Shown: positions 26,506-56,948 of the stretch, one piece after another | How the letters are laid out: each line of letters opens with the position of its first letter | Position numbering within the stretch: the stretch's first letter is position 1 | IMG/VR virus record: IMGVR_UViG_3300034524_000011 | Coordinates: 1 to 64,000 of that record | Reading direction: 5' to 3' (one strand) | Source: a virus | DNA length: 64,000 nucleotides | Position numbers and translations under genes: made by a program | Notes under the pieces: model-generated | Told to the model about the DNA's origin: nothing | The model's input: only the letters and a program-made list of their open reading frames with translations | Databases searched by the model: none

Positions 26506-27597
26506 ATGGCAAATTTTGATTTAGTGAAATTGGCACTAAAGGCGACATGCCCAGGAAACGACGTATTGTTGGACGATAAAGGGCTACCCAGCGTCATGGT
26601 GCGTATTCCGAAGTTTAAGATTTCAGACGTAATCGCCGGAGGCAGCAACAGCACACATCCAGCGTTCATCGTTAATGGAATAGAAGTTCCGGAAATATAC
26701 ATTTCCAAATTCCAGAATGTAATCCATAACGGCAGAGCCTACAGCCTGCCTGGCGAGGACCCCAAGACAAGTATTAACTTTGACACAGCAAGACAGGCAT
26801 GCGAGGCCAAAGGACCAGGCTGGCATCTTATGACGAACGCCGAATGGGCGGCGTTGGCATTATGGTGCAGGAAAAACAGCCTTATGCCTAAAGGCAACAA
26901 CAACTATGGCAAAGACACAAGCGAGAGCACGTTCGTTGCTATTCCAACTTCAGACTCAAATGGCGGCACATACGACACCGGTGACACCATTGGTAGAGTC
27001 GCAACCGGAACCGGCCCTGTGACATGGAGCCACAATGGAGAGGTCACAGGCATATGGGATTTAAACGGCAATGTATGGGAGTGGATAGGTGGATACCGTA
27101 CAGTAGATGGGGAAATTCAAATCCTACCCAATAACGACGCTGCAGATGCAGATAATAGCCAGCTGGTTGATAGCACAAAATGGAAGGCAATCATGCCAGA
27201 TGGAACACTTGTTGCACCAGGAACAGCTGGAACTCTTAAATGGGATTACACTGCCGCAAACCCAACAGGGCAACAGCCATTCAGACTTAATACAACGATC
27301 GAGTTCCCGGCAGCAGATGATACACCGTATGGAGGAATAAGTTTCTCAGCTTTAACTGCTGCATCAGGTGTTAACGTGCCAGAAATATTAAAAGCACTCG
27401 CACTATTCCCTGCAGACACCGGGGACCATGGCGGAGATTATATTTACATGAGAAACAGAGGCGAGCGCCTCGCGTGTCGCGGCGGCGGCTGGTACAACGG
27501 TTCGGCGGCCGGTGTGTTCAGTCTGAGCGGCTACCTTCCGCGCTCGTCCGTCGGCGCGAGCCTCGGGTTCCGCTCCGCTTTTATTCCGGGAATCTGA
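26506..27597 (+). CDS. DGR target: lectin-like (FGE-sulfatase-type) variable tail protein
   Basis: 363 residues from ATG 26506 (AAAGGAGG upstream). It has the formylglycine-generating-enzyme/C-type-lectin scaffold used by DGR variable proteins: GIEVPEIYISKFQNVI, GPGWHLMTNAEWAALALWC, then DLNGNVWEWIGGYR, with the variable region in the last 45 residues. Its final section (CRGGGWYNGSAAG, then FRSAFIPGI) corresponds to the ligand-binding face. As the last tail gene before the lysis module it most likely contacts the host receptor, and retrohoming would change host range. It ends just before a stable hairpin. Confidence 0.92.
   Translation: MANFDLVKLALKATCPGNDVLLDDKGLPSVMVRIPKFKISDVIAGGSNSTHPAFIVNGIEVPEIYISKFQNVIHNGRAYSLPGEDPKTSINFDTARQACEAKGPGWHLMTNAEWAALALWCRKNSLMPKGNNNYGKDTSESTFVAIPTSDSNGGTYDTGDTIGRVATGTGPVTWSHNGEVTGIWDLNGNVWEWIGGYRTVDGEIQILPNNDAADADNSQLVDSTKWKAIMPDGTLVAPGTAGTLKWDYTAANPTGQQPFRLNTTIEFPAADDTPYGGISFSALTAASGVNVPEILKALALFPADTGDHGGDYIYMRNRGERLACRGGGWYNGSAAGVFSLSGYLPRSSVGASLGFRSAFIPGI
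27465..27579 (+). repeat. DGR variable repeat (VR)
   Basis: 115 bp, gapless match to TR at 28043-28157. I count 17 mismatches (27476, 27487, 27488, 27493, 27507, 27527, 27532, 27535, 27536, 27540, 27547, 27548, 27553, 27554, 27556, 27560, 27562). Every one falls on a TR adenine. The last 17 bases (27563-27579) match exactly and contain no adenine, as expected for the homing initiation end. Confidence 0.95.
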
Positions 27598-27625
27598 TAT
27601 CTGGAACCCTGAATATCTGATCATT

Positions 27626-27648
27626 AGGGAGCCGCAAGGCTCCCTTTC
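27626..27648 (+). terminator. 8-bp hairpin with GCAA loop downstream of VR
   Basis: AGGGAGCC (27626-27633), loop GCAA, GGCTCCCT (27638-27645), then TTT. It can serve as a terminator for the tail operon. An 8-bp stem with a GNRA-type loop downstream of VR also resembles the hairpin/cruciform that guides retrohoming in phage DGRs. The distance from the VR end is 46 bp. Confidence 0.7.
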
Positions 27649-27671
27649 AATTTTCAAGACGGAGGGATTAG

Positions 27672-28010
27672 ATGGAAGAGCTGAAGATACTGCAGAAGAC
27701 ATACGACATGATCATGTATGGAAACCAGTGCCTTCTGCAATTTCCCAGAGCAGAGCGATATGCACTTGCAGCAGAGATTAAGCAAAGCATGTATAAAATT
27801 TTGAGACTTATCATCCAGGCAAATAAACAACGCAACAAAAGGCAGCTTCAAATCGAAATCGACACAGAGCTGGACGTGCTGCGTACGTTTATCAGATTGG
27901 CGGCAGATAACCAGACGAAATATCTTCCGCTCCGAAAATATGAAATTTGGAGCAAGCAACTGAACGAAATCGGGAAGATGCTCGGAGGCTGGATGAAGTC
28001 CACAAATTAG
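27672..28010 (+). CDS. avd: DGR accessory variability determinant (Avd)
   Basis: 112 residues, basic and almost wholly helical, the four-helix-bundle type that forms a pentamer binding the reverse transcriptase and the template RNA. Conserved-looking helix pairs are LQKTYDMIMYGNQCLLQFPR and YALAAEIKQSMYKILRLII. It lies between VR and TR, the usual place. ATG with GGAGGG upstream. Confidence 0.88.
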   Translation: MEELKILQKTYDMIMYGNQCLLQFPRAERYALAAEIKQSMYKILRLIIQANKQRNKRQLQIEIDTELDVLRTFIRLAADNQTKYLPLRKYEIWSKQLNEIGKMLGGWMKSTN

Positions 28011-28042
28011 ATAACACCGGGGATAGATCGCATAAACTTGCG

Positions 28043-28157
28043 GCGCCTCGCGTATCGCGGCGGCAACTGGAACAACGGTTCGGCAGCCGGTGTGTTCAGT
28101 CTGAACGGCAACAATCCACGCTCGAACGTCAACACGAACATCGGGTTCCGCTCCGCT
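28043..28157 (+). repeat. DGR template repeat (TR)
   Basis: 115 bp, non-coding in practice. I count 24 adenines, 17 of which differ in VR. In the VR frame it holds nine AAC/AAT codons, eight of which are changed in VR, the classic design for maximal amino acid diversity. The sequence from here to the RT start (28158-28340) carries no gene and probably belongs to the structured template RNA. Confidence 0.95.
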
Positions 28158-28340
28158 CTGCCCCCACACGTCAGAAGCCTGGCGCTCACGTGGCACCAGG
28201 ACGGAACAGGGGGACAAAGGGATCTATCTCCGTGCCTTTTGAGACAGCAGAGGGCAAAAGATTGAATTGCCGAGAAGACGACCGGTAGGAAACGAAAGCC
28301 GCCACGCTCGGCGTAATCAACAATTCGGAGGGAGGTACAC
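28158..28340 (+). ncRNA. Probable 3' part of DGR template RNA / RT leader
   Basis: 183 bases between TR and the reverse transcriptase with no convincing reading frame. In characterised DGRs the RNA downstream of TR is needed for cDNA priming together with RT and Avd. The assignment follows from position. Confidence 0.5.
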
Positions 28341-29432
28341 TTGGAAACACTACGAAATATTTACCCCACCATTTATGACTTCGAGAACCTCCACAAAGCA
28401 TACTTAAGCGCCAGAAAGAACAAGCGGTACCGAGGGGATGTACTGGAATTCACAGCAAACCTCGAAGAAAACCTTATCCAGCTGCAAAATGAACTGATTT
28501 ATAAGACATACCAAGTAGGTAGGTACCGGGAGTTCTATGTTTATGAGCCAAAGAAAAGGCTTATCATGGCCCTGCAGTTCAGGGACCGGGTAGTCCAATG
28601 GGCTATATACCGACACCTGAACCCATGGTTTGATAAGCAATTCATATACGACAGCTACGGCTGCCGAGAAGGGAAAGGCACCCACCGTGCAGCGGATCGA
28701 CTTCAATACTGGATAAGACAAGTGAGCAGAAAGGAGGGACGGTATTATTATTTAAAGCTGGATATTTCAAAATTCTTCTACCGGGTAGATCATGCAGTTT
28801 TAATGGACATTCTCCGGAAGAAAATCGAGGACCAGGACCTGCTGGATCTCCTCGAAAAAATTATCAACTGCGAACATACAGCATTTGGCCTGCCGGCATT
28901 TACGGACCCAGAAGACTGTTCCAGGGAGGACAGGCTCTTTGACAAGGGCATGCCCATAGGCAATTTAACCAGCCAGCTCTTTGCAAACATTTATTTGAAC
29001 GAGCTGGACCAGTACGCAAAGAGGGAGCTGCGGCTGCACTACTACATACGGTACATGGACGACATCATCATTCTTCACAACGACAAGCAGTACCTCCGGG
29101 CAATAAAGGATGACATCGAGAACTTTCTCTGGGAGCACTTAAAGCTGAACCTCAATAAAAAGACAGCAATCAGGCCAATAAGTCAAGGCATCGAGTTTGT
29201 AGGCTTCCGGATCTTTCCCACCCATCGCAAATTGAAAAAATCCAGCGTTAAGAAAATGAAAGCCAGACTGAAGTATGTCAGGTCCGCGTATGAACGCGGC
29301 GAAATTGACGAGGAAAGCCTGCGAGCAACGGAGGCATCTTATCTCGGAGTAATGAAACATTTCAACAGCTATGGATTACGGAAAGCTCTGGGTTTTGTAC
29401 CACCGGAGCAATCAGACGGGGAAAAGAGGTGA
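28341..29432 (+). CDS. DGR reverse transcriptase
   Basis: 363 residues. TTG start with GGAGGGAGG six bases upstream. RT motifs are in order: YYLKLDISKFFYRVDH with D141, the DGR-type GMPIGNLTSQ (about 203-212) and YMDD (238-241), followed by the thumb (GIEFVGFRIFPTHRKLKK). The DGR-type IGNLTSQ separates it from group II intron and retron enzymes, which have different residues there. With Avd it copies TR RNA, misincorporating at adenines, and the cDNA replaces VR. Confidence 0.96.
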   Translation: METLRNIYPTIYDFENLHKAYLSARKNKRYRGDVLEFTANLEENLIQLQNELIYKTYQVGRYREFYVYEPKKRLIMALQFRDRVVQWAIYRHLNPWFDKQFIYDSYGCREGKGTHRAADRLQYWIRQVSRKEGRYYYLKLDISKFFYRVDHAVLMDILRKKIEDQDLLDLLEKIINCEHTAFGLPAFTDPEDCSREDRLFDKGMPIGNLTSQLFANIYLNELDQYAKRELRLHYYIRYMDDIIILHNDKQYLRAIKDDIENFLWEHLKLNLNKKTAIRPISQGIEFVGFRIFPTHRKLKKSSVKKMKARLKYVRSAYERGEIDEESLRATEASYLGVMKHFNSYGLRKALGFVPPEQSDGEKR

Positions 29433-32831: not shown

Positions 32832-32843
32832 GGAGGAATGAGA

Positions 32844-33776
32844 ATGAAGAATATAAGAGACAGAATCGCCGGCGCATTGTACGGCGTAGCAATAGGGGAC
32901 GCATTAGGAGCTCCCCTGGAGTTCATGAGCAAGGAGGAGATTTCCAGGAAGCATGGCCGGGTAACAGAGATGATCGGAGGCGGCTGGCTGAACGTGATAC
33001 CAGGAGAGATCACCGACGACACACAGATGACCCTGGCAGTAGCTGAAGGAATTATAGAGGACCCGGACAACCCGATTAAGGCCATCGGTAAAAGGTTTAT
33101 CGAATGGGCCAGGAGCGGACCGAAGGACATCGGAGGAACCTGCAGCATGAGTATCCGCTGGGCCATCTTCCTGGGCCAAAATGATGCGCCAGACGAAGAG
33201 AAATGGTTCGAGGCAAGTAAATATACCTCCAAAGCAAACGGAGGCCGTAGCGGCGGAAATGGAGCGCTTATGCGCACGGTTTACCCAGGTCTTTATTACA
33301 AGGATTTGCTGATGGCGGTAGAGACGGCCGGAGCCATAGCACAAATGACACACTGGGATAAAAAATCAACAGAGGCTTGTAATTTATACACGGAAATGAT
33401 ACACTTAATTATCGAATCGGTTAATAAGGAACAGGCCCTGCAGATTATAAGAGACGTGCTCCAGGGAAGCGAATACTGCCTGGAAACCAGGAAGCAGCTC
33501 AACCCCACCGGGTACGTCGTGGACAGTTTCAAATGTGCCTTGCACAGCATTGCAGTTTCGCCGACCTTTGAGGAAGCAATTACCGAAGCTGTCAACCTCG
33601 GAGGAGATGCAGATACCATTGCAGCAATTACCGGAGGACTCGCGGGAGCCATCTATGGATATAATATGATACCGGAACGATGGATAAACACACTTGCACA
33701 AGCAATCAAGAATCGACTCGATAGGCTCGTAGACGCAGCGGTGAAAAATAGGGAGGATGTTAACAAAAATGGATAA
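32844..33776 (+). CDS. ADP-ribosylglycohydrolase (DraG/ARH family)
   Basis: 310 residues from ATG 32844 (AGGAGG seven bases upstream; ATG 32838 is too close). All family motifs are present: GDALGAPLEF (18-27), metal-binding EITDDTQMT (55-63), NGALMR in the middle and GGDADTIAAITGGLAGAIYG (253-272) with the second set of magnesium-binding acids. The enzyme removes ADP-ribose from modified proteins or nucleic acids. Within a repressor-controlled cassette it could counter a host or phage ADP-ribosylation system. It overlaps the next gene by eight bases. Confidence 0.93.
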   Translation: MKNIRDRIAGALYGVAIGDALGAPLEFMSKEEISRKHGRVTEMIGGGWLNVIPGEITDDTQMTLAVAEGIIEDPDNPIKAIGKRFIEWARSGPKDIGGTCSMSIRWAIFLGQNDAPDEEKWFEASKYTSKANGGRSGGNGALMRTVYPGLYYKDLLMAVETAGAIAQMTHWDKKSTEACNLYTEMIHLIIESVNKEQALQIIRDVLQGSEYCLETRKQLNPTGYVVDSFKCALHSIAVSPTFEEAITEAVNLGGDADTIAAITGGLAGAIYGYNMIPERWINTLAQAIKNRLDRLVDAAVKNREDVNKNG

Positions 33777-35556: not shown

Positions 35557-36708
35557 CTAATTTTTTGAGATTTCTTTTTCTACTTTTTCGAGATCCAAAA
35601 CGACTGCAGAAGGACTTTCATTTTTGATGGTAGCATGCCGATTTAGATCAGCAGCAACCTGCTCCATCTTGTTTGGATACAGATGTGCATAGGTAGACAT
35701 GGCCACCTCGACAGTATCGCCCAGGCGCTCGGCCACAGCCACGATGGAATAACCCAGCTCAACCAGCAAGGCAGCATGAGAATGACGGAGATCATGAACG
35801 CGGATCCGTTTCACGCCGGCAGCCTTGGCCGCCTCATTGAGAGCACGCCCCAGAGTTCCCTTCTGGAAGTAGAATATACGGTCGTGCTCGTCGATATCAT
35901 ACAGAGCATTGATATACCGCATGACCTCATCATAGAGGAAATCAGGCATTGAGACATCCCGGTAACTGTTGTCGGTTTTAGGAGGCCCGTTCTTATCCTG
36001 GCCTTTGCGCCGGTGGTGAGTTTTTTCAATGCGGGCAATCTTTGAGGGAAGGATATCGGCAGGCTGCAGAGCGAGGCACTCGCCTTCACGGAGGCCCAGC
36101 CAGTACATGAGCATAAAGGCAACACGGAAGCTCCAGTTTGTGACGTAAGCCATGGCCTGGTTAAATTCAGACAAGGTCCAGAATTTCATCTTCCCGGCCT
36201 TCTTTTTACCCATGAAGCCGGCAGGATGGCACGGATTAGACTTCAGGTTATAGAACTTAACCGCATAATTGAAAATGGCCGACAGCCGGCTATTTAACGA
36301 CCGGATATAGGTTTCAGAATACTTTTTACCGGTCCGAGGATTTATGGCAGACATGACGGTGTTCTGCCAGTTCCGGATCGTCACGGCGTCAATTTCATTC
36401 ACCGGGAGCTCACCAAAGTAAGGGAGCAGCCACTTGTCGATGATGGAATCCTGCGTGCCCTGCGTACCTTCCCGGACACGATGCTCGGCGTCGGCCCGGT
36501 ACAATTCCACCAGGGAGGCAAACGACATTTCACAGTTCCGGCTATTCTTCAGGAGAAACTCACGCTCGAATGCCTGGGCATCCGACTTTTTATCGAACCC
36601 TTCTTTTTTCTTTTTTCGCCTCTTGCCGGTCCAATCAGTATACCAGAAGGCGGCGTACCATTTTTTAGCTCCACTTTTAGTTTCGTACTTATAGACAGGC
36701 AATCGCAT
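35557..36708 (-). CDS. int: Tyrosine site-specific integrase
   Basis: 383 residues. An N-terminal arm-binding domain (KYETKSGAKKWYAAFWYTDWTGKRRK) is followed by a core-binding domain and the catalytic domain with LGLREGE (first Arg), KTDNSYR, HDLRH (H305, R308) and tyrosine Y340 in MSTYAHLYP. It carries out integration at att. The gene is preceded on its own strand by a terminator, so it is separate from the repressor operon. The ATG lies just after a GGGGG run. Confidence 0.96.
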   Translation of the reverse strand: MRLPVYKYETKSGAKKWYAAFWYTDWTGKRRKKKKEGFDKKSDAQAFEREFLLKNSRNCEMSFASLVELYRADAEHRVREGTQGTQDSIIDKWLLPYFGELPVNEIDAVTIRNWQNTVMSAINPRTGKKYSETYIRSLNSRLSAIFNYAVKFYNLKSNPCHPAGFMGKKKAGKMKFWTLSEFNQAMAYVTNWSFRVAFMLMYWLGLREGECLALQPADILPSKIARIEKTHHRRKGQDKNGPPKTDNSYRDVSMPDFLYDEVMRYINALYDIDEHDRIFYFQKGTLGRALNEAAKAAGVKRIRVHDLRHSHAALLVELGYSIVAVAERLGDTVEVAMSTYAHLYPNKMEQVAADLNRHATIKNESPSAVVLDLEKVEKEISKN

Positions 36709-54590: not shown

Positions 54591-54677
54591 GCAAGAACCA
54601 TGCCAGCACAGGGCACAAATTGGGCACTGTAAAGGCACTTTAAATATTATAAAATGATAGCGTGGAGGAGTGGAAAT
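54591..54677 (+). promoter_or_regulatory. 11-bp-phased GCAC array and AT-rich element, candidate late control region
   Basis: GCAA/GCCA/GCAC/GCAC/GCAC start at 54591, 54602, 54613, 54624 and 54635, all 11 bp apart, followed by TTTAAATATTATAAAATG (54639-54656), which holds a good -10-like TATAAAAT. No proper -35 is present, as expected of an activator-dependent promoter. There are no ACC repeats here. Confidence 0.6.
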
Positions 54678-56309
54678 ATGGCCAAGAAAAAGGCGACAAA
54701 TACCTTCATCGAGATTGACTACTCAACCGAGGCAACACCGAGGGCAGTAACACCGGACGGCATTCCGGTTTTCTGTGCTCATGATGATATTATTCCGATT
54801 GAGAAGGCAATCCCGAACCCCAAGAACCCGAACCAGCACAGCCAAGCTCAAATAGAGCTGCTGGGGAACATCATCAAAGCAAACGGATGGAGAGTAGCGG
54901 TCACCATTTCAAAGAGGAGCGGCTTCATTGTCAAAGGACATGGCCGACGCCTGGCCGCGCTGCATATCAAGAGCGGATATATCCCGGTAGATTACCAGGA
55001 CTACGCCAGCGAGGCCGAGGAATGGGCGGACCTTATAGCAGACAACAGGCTGGCAGAGCTCTCAACCATCGACACAGGAATGCTGGTCGATTTAATCAAC
55101 GATATGGACACCGGAGAGGTACCGGTGGAGCTGACCGGTTACACCGAGGAGGACCTGGCGGCCATCATAGCAGCTCTGGAAGGAGCAGACGACACGGTGG
55201 ACGACAAGGTCGACGATGTACCGGAGACACAAAACATACCAATGACCAAGGCCGGAGATATCTGGTTCCTTGGACCACATAAACTGATATGCGGCAGCGC
55301 AACGGACCGAGAGACCATCGAAAAGCTGATGGCCGGAGAAAAGGGCCAGATGGTCAACACGGACCCGCCATACGGAGTAAGCTATGAGACCCAGAGCGGC
55401 AAGTTTGACATGATCAAGAACGACGACCTCACTGGCGACGATTTAATGGCCGACCTTTTGATACCGGCATTCAAGAACTATGTAGAGTTCACGGATCCGG
55501 ACGCAGCCTTTTATATCTGGCACGCAAGCAGCACCAGGCGAGACTTTGAGGACGCCATGACAGCTGCAGGCCTTATCGAAAAGCAGTACATCATCTGGGT
55601 AAAGAACGCACCGGTCCTGGGCCATGCAGACTACCAATGGGCGCATGAACCGTGCTTCTATGCAGAGAAGGCAGGCCAGAGCGCTCACTTCTATGGAGAT
55701 CGATCGCAAAGGACCACCTGGAAGGTAGTCCTCCGGGACAGCAACCACATGGCAACGGTCCTCACAGGAGGCGTCGTATTGACCGACGGTGCCGGAGGGA
55801 AGGTATTCATCAACGATAAGCCTCCAAAGGGCAAGAAGATCAGGTATATACGCTTAAGCGAAGGCAAGAGCGTCTGCCTGTATCCGGAGAGCAAAGTGTC
55901 GACCGTCTGGGAAGTAGCCAGAGAAACCGGCACAGAGCACCCGACACAAAAGCCGGTAGAGCTCGCAATCAGAGCCATAGACAACAGCAGCAAGCCAGGA
56001 GACCTGGTACTTGATTTCTTCGGAGGCTCCGGGAGCACGCTCATAGGAGCCGAAATGACCGGCAGGCGATGCAACATGGTGGAACTGGACCCGAGATACT
56101 GCGATGTAATCATTAACCGGTATGTGCGCTTCACAGGAAATATCGGAGTGACCTGCCTGCGAGACGGCCAGGAGCTGACATACATGCAGCTGAAGCAGGA
56201 AAACGACAAGCTCAATGGCCTTGCGGGGGGGTACAGAATATTGATATTTAAAGTAAGATGCGCATTCACCCGATTAATCCGCACAATAAACAAAATATTC
56301 AGGAGATAA
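54678..56309 (+). CDS. ParB-like domain fused to DNA methyltransferase
   Basis: 543 residues from ATG 54678 (GGAGG upstream). N-terminal ParB/Srx-like domain (about 35-130: NPKNPNQHSQAQIELL, GFIVKGHGRRLAAL, LIADNRLAEL). C-terminal N6-adenine/N4-cytosine methyltransferase with catalytic DPPY (229-232) and SAM motif DFFGGSGST (446-454). Such fusions precede terminase genes in many phages and may mark or protect phage DNA. A run of seven G near codon 515 precedes an unusual basic-hydrophobic tail. Confidence 0.92.
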   Translation: MAKKKATNTFIEIDYSTEATPRAVTPDGIPVFCAHDDIIPIEKAIPNPKNPNQHSQAQIELLGNIIKANGWRVAVTISKRSGFIVKGHGRRLAALHIKSGYIPVDYQDYASEAEEWADLIADNRLAELSTIDTGMLVDLINDMDTGEVPVELTGYTEEDLAAIIAALEGADDTVDDKVDDVPETQNIPMTKAGDIWFLGPHKLICGSATDRETIEKLMAGEKGQMVNTDPPYGVSYETQSGKFDMIKNDDLTGDDLMADLLIPAFKNYVEFTDPDAAFYIWHASSTRRDFEDAMTAAGLIEKQYIIWVKNAPVLGHADYQWAHEPCFYAEKAGQSAHFYGDRSQRTTWKVVLRDSNHMATVLTGGVVLTDGAGGKVFINDKPPKGKKIRYIRLSEGKSVCLYPESKVSTVWEVARETGTEHPTQKPVELAIRAIDNSSKPGDLVLDFFGGSGSTLIGAEMTGRRCNMVELDPRYCDVIINRYVRFTGNIGVTCLRDGQELTYMQLKQENDKLNGLAGGYRILIFKVRCAFTRLIRTINKIFRR

Positions 56310-56363: not shown

Positions 56364-56948
56364 ATGGGGAAGCGCAAGGAAAATGTCTATCCGTGGGAAC
56401 GGATCCCAGGGGAGACTTCCAGGGAATATCAGAAGTTCTGTGCATACCGGGACATGAACTCATCGGATAAACCAATCCGGAAACGCAGCCTTCAAAGGCT
56501 GGCCAAGGAGCTGGGACTTTCACTGGACCACCTAAAGAAGTTAAGCGCGAAAAACAACTGGGTAGAACGAGCGGCCGCATATGACGCCTACCTGGAAGAG
56601 CTGGCCAGAGAGCAGAACGAGGCAGAGATCCTCAAAATGCGAAAGAACCATGCATTGCTGGCCTCTCAAATGATCACCAAGGCAGCCAAAAGGCTGCTGA
56701 CCATGCCGGAAGAGGAGATAACCGCAGCCGACCTCGTGCGCCTGGTCGATGTCGGAGTGAAAATCGAAAGATTGAGCCGCGGCGAATCCACCGAAAACAG
56801 ACAGATAAGCGGAGAAGCAAAGGTCATTCACCAGGGAGAAGTCACGGTTAAAAATCAGATGAACCTGGATCTTTCCCGCTTAACTGACGAGGAGCTGTCG
56901 GAGCTTGAACAGCTACTGGAAAAACTACATTCAGAGCCCGATGTTTGA
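56364..56948 (+). CDS. Terminase small subunit, second phage copy
   Basis: 194 residues, AAAGGAGG upstream. Complete version of the gene cut at the left window edge, with the additional N-terminus (MGKRKENVYPWERIPGE and so on). Same helix-turn-helix and acidic end as the first copy. Overlaps the large subunit gene by 44 bases. Confidence 0.85.
   Translation: MGKRKENVYPWERIPGETSREYQKFCAYRDMNSSDKPIRKRSLQRLAKELGLSLDHLKKLSAKNNWVERAAAYDAYLEELAREQNEAEILKMRKNHALLASQMITKAAKRLLTMPEEEITAADLVRLVDVGVKIERLSRGESTENRQISGEAKVIHQGEVTVKNQMNLDLSRLTDEELSELEQLLEKLHSEPDV

Follow-up and report, generated by a model that had tools for sequence, protein, structure and literature searches.

What marks the variable repeat (VR) of a diversity-generating retroelement (DGR) as the recipient of sequence copied from its template repeat (TR)? 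How mutated cDNA integrates at VR was recently described as unsolved (PMC12875486, 2026), and what is known of how VR is told from TR comes mainly from a 21-bp stretch of a single phage. The question is raised by a cassette located within 64,000 nucleotides of viral DNA (positions 1 to 64,000 of IMG/VR record IMGVR_UViG_3300034524_000011; the window). Between the end common to VR and TR and a hairpin, the DNA reads ATCTGATATCTGGAACCCTGAATATCTG (27592-27619), presenting four evenly spaced CTG units. This array is the only one in the 75.9-kb record, and neither it nor the hairpin between VR and avd figured in the first-pass annotation of this DNA.

The Cassette and Its Variable Protein

A repeat search of the window returned a single 115-nt pair (27465-27579 and 28043-28157; 85% identical). 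The retroelement lies on the plus strand, in the order target gene with VR at its 3′ end, avd, TR and reverse transcriptase (RT):

26506-27597, plus strand: target (variable) gene; 363 aa, C-type-lectin/FGE-like (PF03781, 5e-07; phrog_2889, 5e-138)
27465-27579, plus strand: VR; 17 of 17 mismatches to TR on TR adenines
27565-27579, plus strand: invariant VR 3′ end, GGGTTCCGCTCCGCT, the same in TR
27592-27619, plus strand: phased CTG array, ATCTG-ATATCTG-GAACCCTG-AATATCTG, with CTG at 27594, 27601, 27609 and 27617
27626-27645, plus strand: hairpin/cruciform, AGGGAGCC-GCAA-GGCTCCCT; 8-bp stem, 4-nt loop, also terminator-like
27672-28010, plus strand: avd, accessory variability determinant; 112 aa (PF22296 bAvd, 1.9e-32; phrog_3206, 'Avd protein of DGR')
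28043-28157, plus strand: TR; 24 adenines
28158-28340, plus strand: TR-RT spacer, taken, from its position and by analogy with BPP-1, as the presumed 3′ portion of the DGR RNA; no CTG array here
28341-29432, plus strand: DGR reverse transcriptase; 363 aa (RVT_1, phrog_1423), with IGNLTSQ and YMDD

The reading frames of target, avd and RT are all intact; the stop codon of the target gene (TGA, 27595-27597) shares bases with the first CTG unit, and the RT gene starts with TTG, preceded by GGAGG. That target, Avd, TR and RT together make up a complete DGR, as the first-pass annotation had proposed, was borne out by profile searches and by the best match of the RT to a solved structure, PDB 8ub7 (E 2e-55), a 328-aa reverse transcriptase, 328 aa being the length of the BPP-1 RT. 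Every number given earlier for the repeats was also reproduced: all 17 mismatches in the 115 bp fall on TR adenines (17 of 24; hypergeometric P = 4e-15), with 10 A>G, 4 A>T and 3 A>C changes, and eight of nine AAY codons are altered. The element is typical of DGRs, since 818 of 845 mismatches were found on TR adenines among 65 dereplicated members of the class; Avd is present in about three quarters of DGRs. An Rfam scan of the window gave no match, a tRNA scan found none, and copies of the cassette were not found on plasmids.

The lectin fold previously assigned to the target protein was recovered in an AlphaFold (AF2) model (mean pLDDT 84.7; 20 sequences). Its best Foldseek match was TaqVP (5vf4), the C-type-lectin variable protein of a Thermus aquaticus DGR (E 6e-40, TM 0.90, 40% identity over the full length), and weak further matches were obtained with Mtd and TvpA. 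By analogy with BPP-1, changes in this protein would be predicted to shift host range. The RT motifs (I/V)GxxxSQ and YMDD, the confinement of TR/VR differences to adenines, a suitable target fold, Avd, and a VR that changes while TR stays fixed were all found; as read from sequence, the cassette is almost certainly a complete, functional DGR of known type through which a temperate myophage varies its lectin-like tail-tip protein.

The 3′ flanks of TR in the window (28158-28340) and in the DGR phages L119, L122, L123, L127 and L128 have in common a succession of the form CAGAAG / CCAAGGGG / CCAGTGC / AAAGGATG-like, probably corresponding to a structured spacer of the DGR RNA.

Recent Rewriting of VR

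Adenine mutagenesis, past or current, had been claimed from the VR/TR differences of the window, and a comparison with contig L003 (IMG/VR 3300034685_000020), over the block common to the two, carries this further, to rewriting that was natural and recent. Identity was complete across the target gene upstream of VR (733/733 nt), across TR (111/111 nt) and at the non-adenine positions of VR (91/91), while 16 of the 24 adenine positions in VR differ; the two RTs are 99% identical. Independent homing events would be expected to leave just this, flanks that stay identical around a VR changed solely at the positions open to the mechanism, and rewriting must therefore postdate the origin of the common block. 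In the two contigs the same phage block is seen in two rewritten states, produced by a DGR recently used in nature, and the comparison argues against VR being clonal in every sample. The window itself shows a single VR state, as would a fossil element that carried old VR/TR differences and no longer worked; with every open reading frame intact, and with all 16 differences from L003 lying on TR adenines between identical flanks, such a fossil is very improbable.

Within the same comparison, the 3′ half of avd (about 27732-28046) forms a divergent patch (78-93%) resembling the result of a recombinational exchange between the surroundings of VR and those of TR. As this patch sits between identical blocks, both genomes are mosaics.

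A Phased Array Between VR and the Hairpin

The array was characterized in the 45 nt following VR in 65 dereplicated relatives, with dinucleotide shuffles and the 45 nt following TR as controls. CTG was observed 229 times after VR, compared to 113 ± 6 in shuffled sequences and 55 after TR. Pairs of CTG at lag 7 numbered 88 (3.7 ± 1.9 shuffled; 1 in TR flanks) and pairs at lag 8 numbered 58 (3.4 shuffled), the commonest spacing of units being 7-7-8. When 29 arrays of this spacing were aligned on YTG, most linker positions varied and the units were constant; the invariance of the units follows partly from how the chains were constructed, which is not so for the lag statistics. Conservation of the array is in part a matter of common ancestry, yet both the linkers and the stems of the hairpins have diverged.

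Scans with four distant RTs provided breadth. Autocorrelation calculated without reference to any unit peaked at lag 7 in window-like (z = 17), nd12-like (z = 6.6) and VHML-like (z = 8.3) DGRs, with flat TR controls; the latter two groups peak at lag 15 as well, and the VHML-like group also at lag 8. With Pseudomonas D3-like DGRs, peaks were found at lag 4/8, again with TR-side controls flat at these lags; the BPP-1-like group gave no global autocorrelation peak. The units themselves differ by lineage, being CTG, TTG, CTT, TTC or ATC. In the D3-like DGRs (L193, L201, L204, L231 and others), two VRs were noted, with TTC-type units in about 8-nt phase near each VR end. A strict 21-base form of the array pattern was matched by 16 stretches in a search of 2.9 million viral contigs; each of the 16 has a VR end before it, a hairpin after it and avd 130-170 nt further on. 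Taken from these sequence comparisons, the array is probably a functional homing signal.

Descriptions of the hairpin and of the IMH were found in the literature searched (the text of openly readable papers, figures aside), and none of a phased array; the array is thus provisionally considered undescribed. The TAACTGA direct repeats of Beggiatoaceae (PMC4679880) likewise consist of 7-nt phased units containing CTG, but these are genome-wide, mostly upstream of start codons, with no DGR link mentioned, and the similarity is one of resemblance only, in another context.

Alternative Accounts of the Array and the Hairpin

Coding constraint was rejected as the source of the pattern because the first unit occurs in all three reading phases (phase 0/1/2 at 23/17/12 loci) and the stop codon is found anywhere between 10 nt upstream and 20 nt downstream of that unit. 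This same scatter bears on the notion that the array serves to block translation in three frames. The CTGA and TAA within it do give stops, and 27 of 52 loci are stopped in all three frames within 45 nt, but the other 25 are not, which led to rejection of a universal stop block. Moreover, VRs of the nd12 type lie inside a gene, where an array of CTT-CTT-CTT-CTG at 7-7-8 stands in open coding sequence. A stop block is accordingly an unlikely explanation. Guide-like base pairing between array and DGR RNA has even less to recommend it: repeated short units could match a repeated complement, but complementarity of the array to the RNA was at the shuffled level (mean z -0.09 ± 0.12, n = 65) and TR flanks have no clear CAG periodicity. 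With no signal detected, this RNA-DNA contact was rejected as highly improbable.

A further possibility is that the hairpin following the target gene is a transcription terminator and nothing else, leaving the array incidental. The hairpin of the window scores as terminator-like, with a T-rich tail. Published VR-side hairpins have a GC-rich stem of 7-10 bp and a 4-nt loop with the consensus GRNA (Guo et al., 2011), and are common in phage DGRs, though not universal. A 4-nt-loop hairpin was found after VR in 49 of 65 relatives, with 44 different stems; 43 of these 49 loops are GRNA, extending the published pattern, compared to none of 18 after TR. The GCAA loop of the window departs from this consensus and is common to its near relatives. 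Such constraint on loop identity argues against a terminator alone, as do the many hairpins of relatives that lack a T run and the role of the BPP-1 hairpin as DNA (Guo et al., 2011). Termination as the sole function is hence improbable, and a homing signal comprising the array remains the preferred reading.

Association of the Array With Avd

Using a per-site threshold of P ≤ 0.01 and counting target sites without dereplication, an array was detected at 197 of the 382 sites that belong to Avd-bearing loci and at none of the 11 in Avd-less loci (nor at P ≤ 0.02); the 5 hits among 393 TR flanks give the rate at which the test succeeds by chance. When RTs were grouped at 65% identity, arrays were present in 35 of 61 Avd-bearing groups and 0 of 8 Avd-less groups (Fisher 0.002). 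The 26 Avd-bearing groups under the threshold include the BPP-1-like groups, where just a pair of units stands at lag 7, in coding sequence. Nine further named phages without Avd (including crAssphage LMMB, Butyrivibrio and FP_Epona) had no array (0/9), and one of three further named phages with Avd reached P 0.05. Altogether, none of the 20 target sites examined in loci without Avd carried an array, two of these sites being doubtful (L478, degenerate; L169, possibly truncated). In the RT tree, Avd-less elements form one deep clade plus ANMV-1, and for this reason the comparison amounts to two tree contrasts, not twenty.

One of the doubtful loci, L478 (2642-4121), holds a degenerate DGR that lacks avd, has the RT motif GSLLNQ, and has a target gene that enters a TR-like flank after VR. 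It looks like a product of VR-TR recombination; the view that Avd and array were both lost naturally was considered and rejected, given that the element is rearranged and its target gene now runs into the TR-like flank.

Relationship to BPP-1 and Other Known Systems

In BPP-1, the IMH consists of a (GC)14 element and a 21-bp sequence that has five mismatches to TR and sets the direction of transfer (Guo et al., 2011; PMC3240598). The BPP-1 record reads CGGGGCGCGCGGCG, followed by TCTGTGACCACCTGATTCTTG in VR and TCTGTGCCCATCACCTTCTTG in TR; the two differ at positions 7, 11, 13, 14 and 15, with three of these mismatches in one CTGA. A pair of YTG units at lag 7 is kept in 19 of 21 BPP-1-like VRs and in none of 21 TRs, and the segment is coding there. 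By position, GGGTTCCGCTCCGCT at the VR end would be the counterpart of the (GC)14 element (Guo et al., 2011). The array of the window occupies the place of the 21-bp element, and on comparison of the sequences we infer that it represents the general form of this directionality element. Mutation of the 4-nt spacer directly before the BPP-1 hairpin is tolerated, which counts against a role for the array, but this spacer follows, and lies outside of, the 21-bp element.

Of known systems, the BPP-1 DGR (mtd-avd-TR-brt) resembles that of the window in its order of target, avd, TR and RT, its adenine-specific differences, its VR-side hairpin, its common VR/TR 3′ end, and the match of the window RT to a reverse transcriptase of BPP-1 length (8ub7). 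It differs in that the target of the window is closer in fold to TaqVP than to Mtd, the window has four CTG units and BPP-1 two YTG units at lag 7, and the hairpin loop of the window is GCAA instead of GRNA. The DGR of the Thermus aquaticus prophage has a variable protein of like fold (TaqVP, 5vf4; 40% identity) and the same cassette order (PMC6328139), but host and phage differ. Also close are the DGRs of Faecalibacterium phage FP_Lagaffe, Bacillus phage BalMu-1 and Dulem virus 37, with targets 42-53% and RTs 53-62% identical to those of the window. Array and hairpin are present in BalMu-1 and Dulem virus 37, and the array in FP_Lagaffe; the linkers, stem sequences, phages and hosts all differ from those of the window. 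The system is thus of a known and well-supported kind, with a target-site signal that is possibly undescribed.

Proposed Mechanism and Its Significance

By extension from BPP-1, the TR RNA would be bound by RT and Avd and copied with errors at adenines, and the mutated cDNA would then replace VR, an outcome to which the two rewritten states of the phage block testify. The direction from TR to VR would be set by DNA on the VR side, directly past the common VR/TR end. By comparison, this DNA consists, here and in much of the Avd-bearing part of the DGR tree, of a phased array with about four YTG units spaced at 7-8 nt and a hairpin behind them. The Avd of BPP-1 forms a pentamer. A period of 7-8 nt is unlike the turn of B-DNA and suits single-stranded DNA lying across a multi-subunit ring, and reading by an RT-Avd complex is therefore proposed: the array would be recognized as single-stranded sense DNA, each unit contacting one protomer of the ring. 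The target strand has been argued to be open as lagging-strand template (PMC12875486). That Avd itself does the reading is speculative, and doubtful as yet.

The most far-reaching proposal, to which we assign a probability of roughly 0.45, is that about four YTG-type units in 7-8-nt phase, lying between the VR end and the hairpin, constitute a general and hitherto undescribed DGR target-site signal, the general form of the IMH that makes VR the recipient, and that the RT complex with its Avd recognizes this signal in single-stranded form. BPP-1, in which homing was dissected, keeps only the short form, and this would explain why the pattern was missed. With the DGR of the window, a phage lineage rich in relatives gains one more case that is well documented and was recently active; of greater importance than the DGR itself is the array, which is the part worthy of specialist attention. 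A target-site pattern tuned by lineage allows for a direct mutational test, helps to find remote VRs, and would guide the placement of DGR target sites in reporter genes.

Phage Setting and Host

In the 75,937-base record, two prophage-like genomes related to each other stand in tandem; the 19.5 kb covered by both is about 89% identical, and the record ends before the expected DGR position of the second, right-hand phage. The tandem arrangement is possibly an assembly chimera; a reading of the repeated contig ends as circular permutation was rejected, the two copies being only about 89% identical. To the left of the cassette are genes for the terminase large subunit, a Mu-type portal (Portal_Mu, PF06074), tail sheath (PF04984) and baseplate (wedge, phrog_6), and the presence of the sheath and wedge families supports the earlier designation of a myophage, its PBSX-like character being putative. 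Two features lie to the right:

35557-36708, minus strand: integrase (phrog_1), which may belong to the right-hand phage
56364-56948: second terminase small subunit

Sheath, baseplate and integrase genes, the last possibly that of the right-hand phage, are as found in contractile-tailed temperate phages. Named relatives of the RT occur in Clostridia, including Acetivibrio and Lachnospiraceae, and the host of the prophage is therefore likely clostridial.

Elsewhere in the window, an ADP-ribosylglycohydrolase-like gene (32838-33776; phrog_6572) follows the lysis genes, and a ParB-like domain fused to a DNA methyltransferase (54654-56309; phrog_498) is encoded directly before the second terminase. 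Among the other contigs, L012 carries a near-perfect tandem repeat of 114 nt at 698-942.
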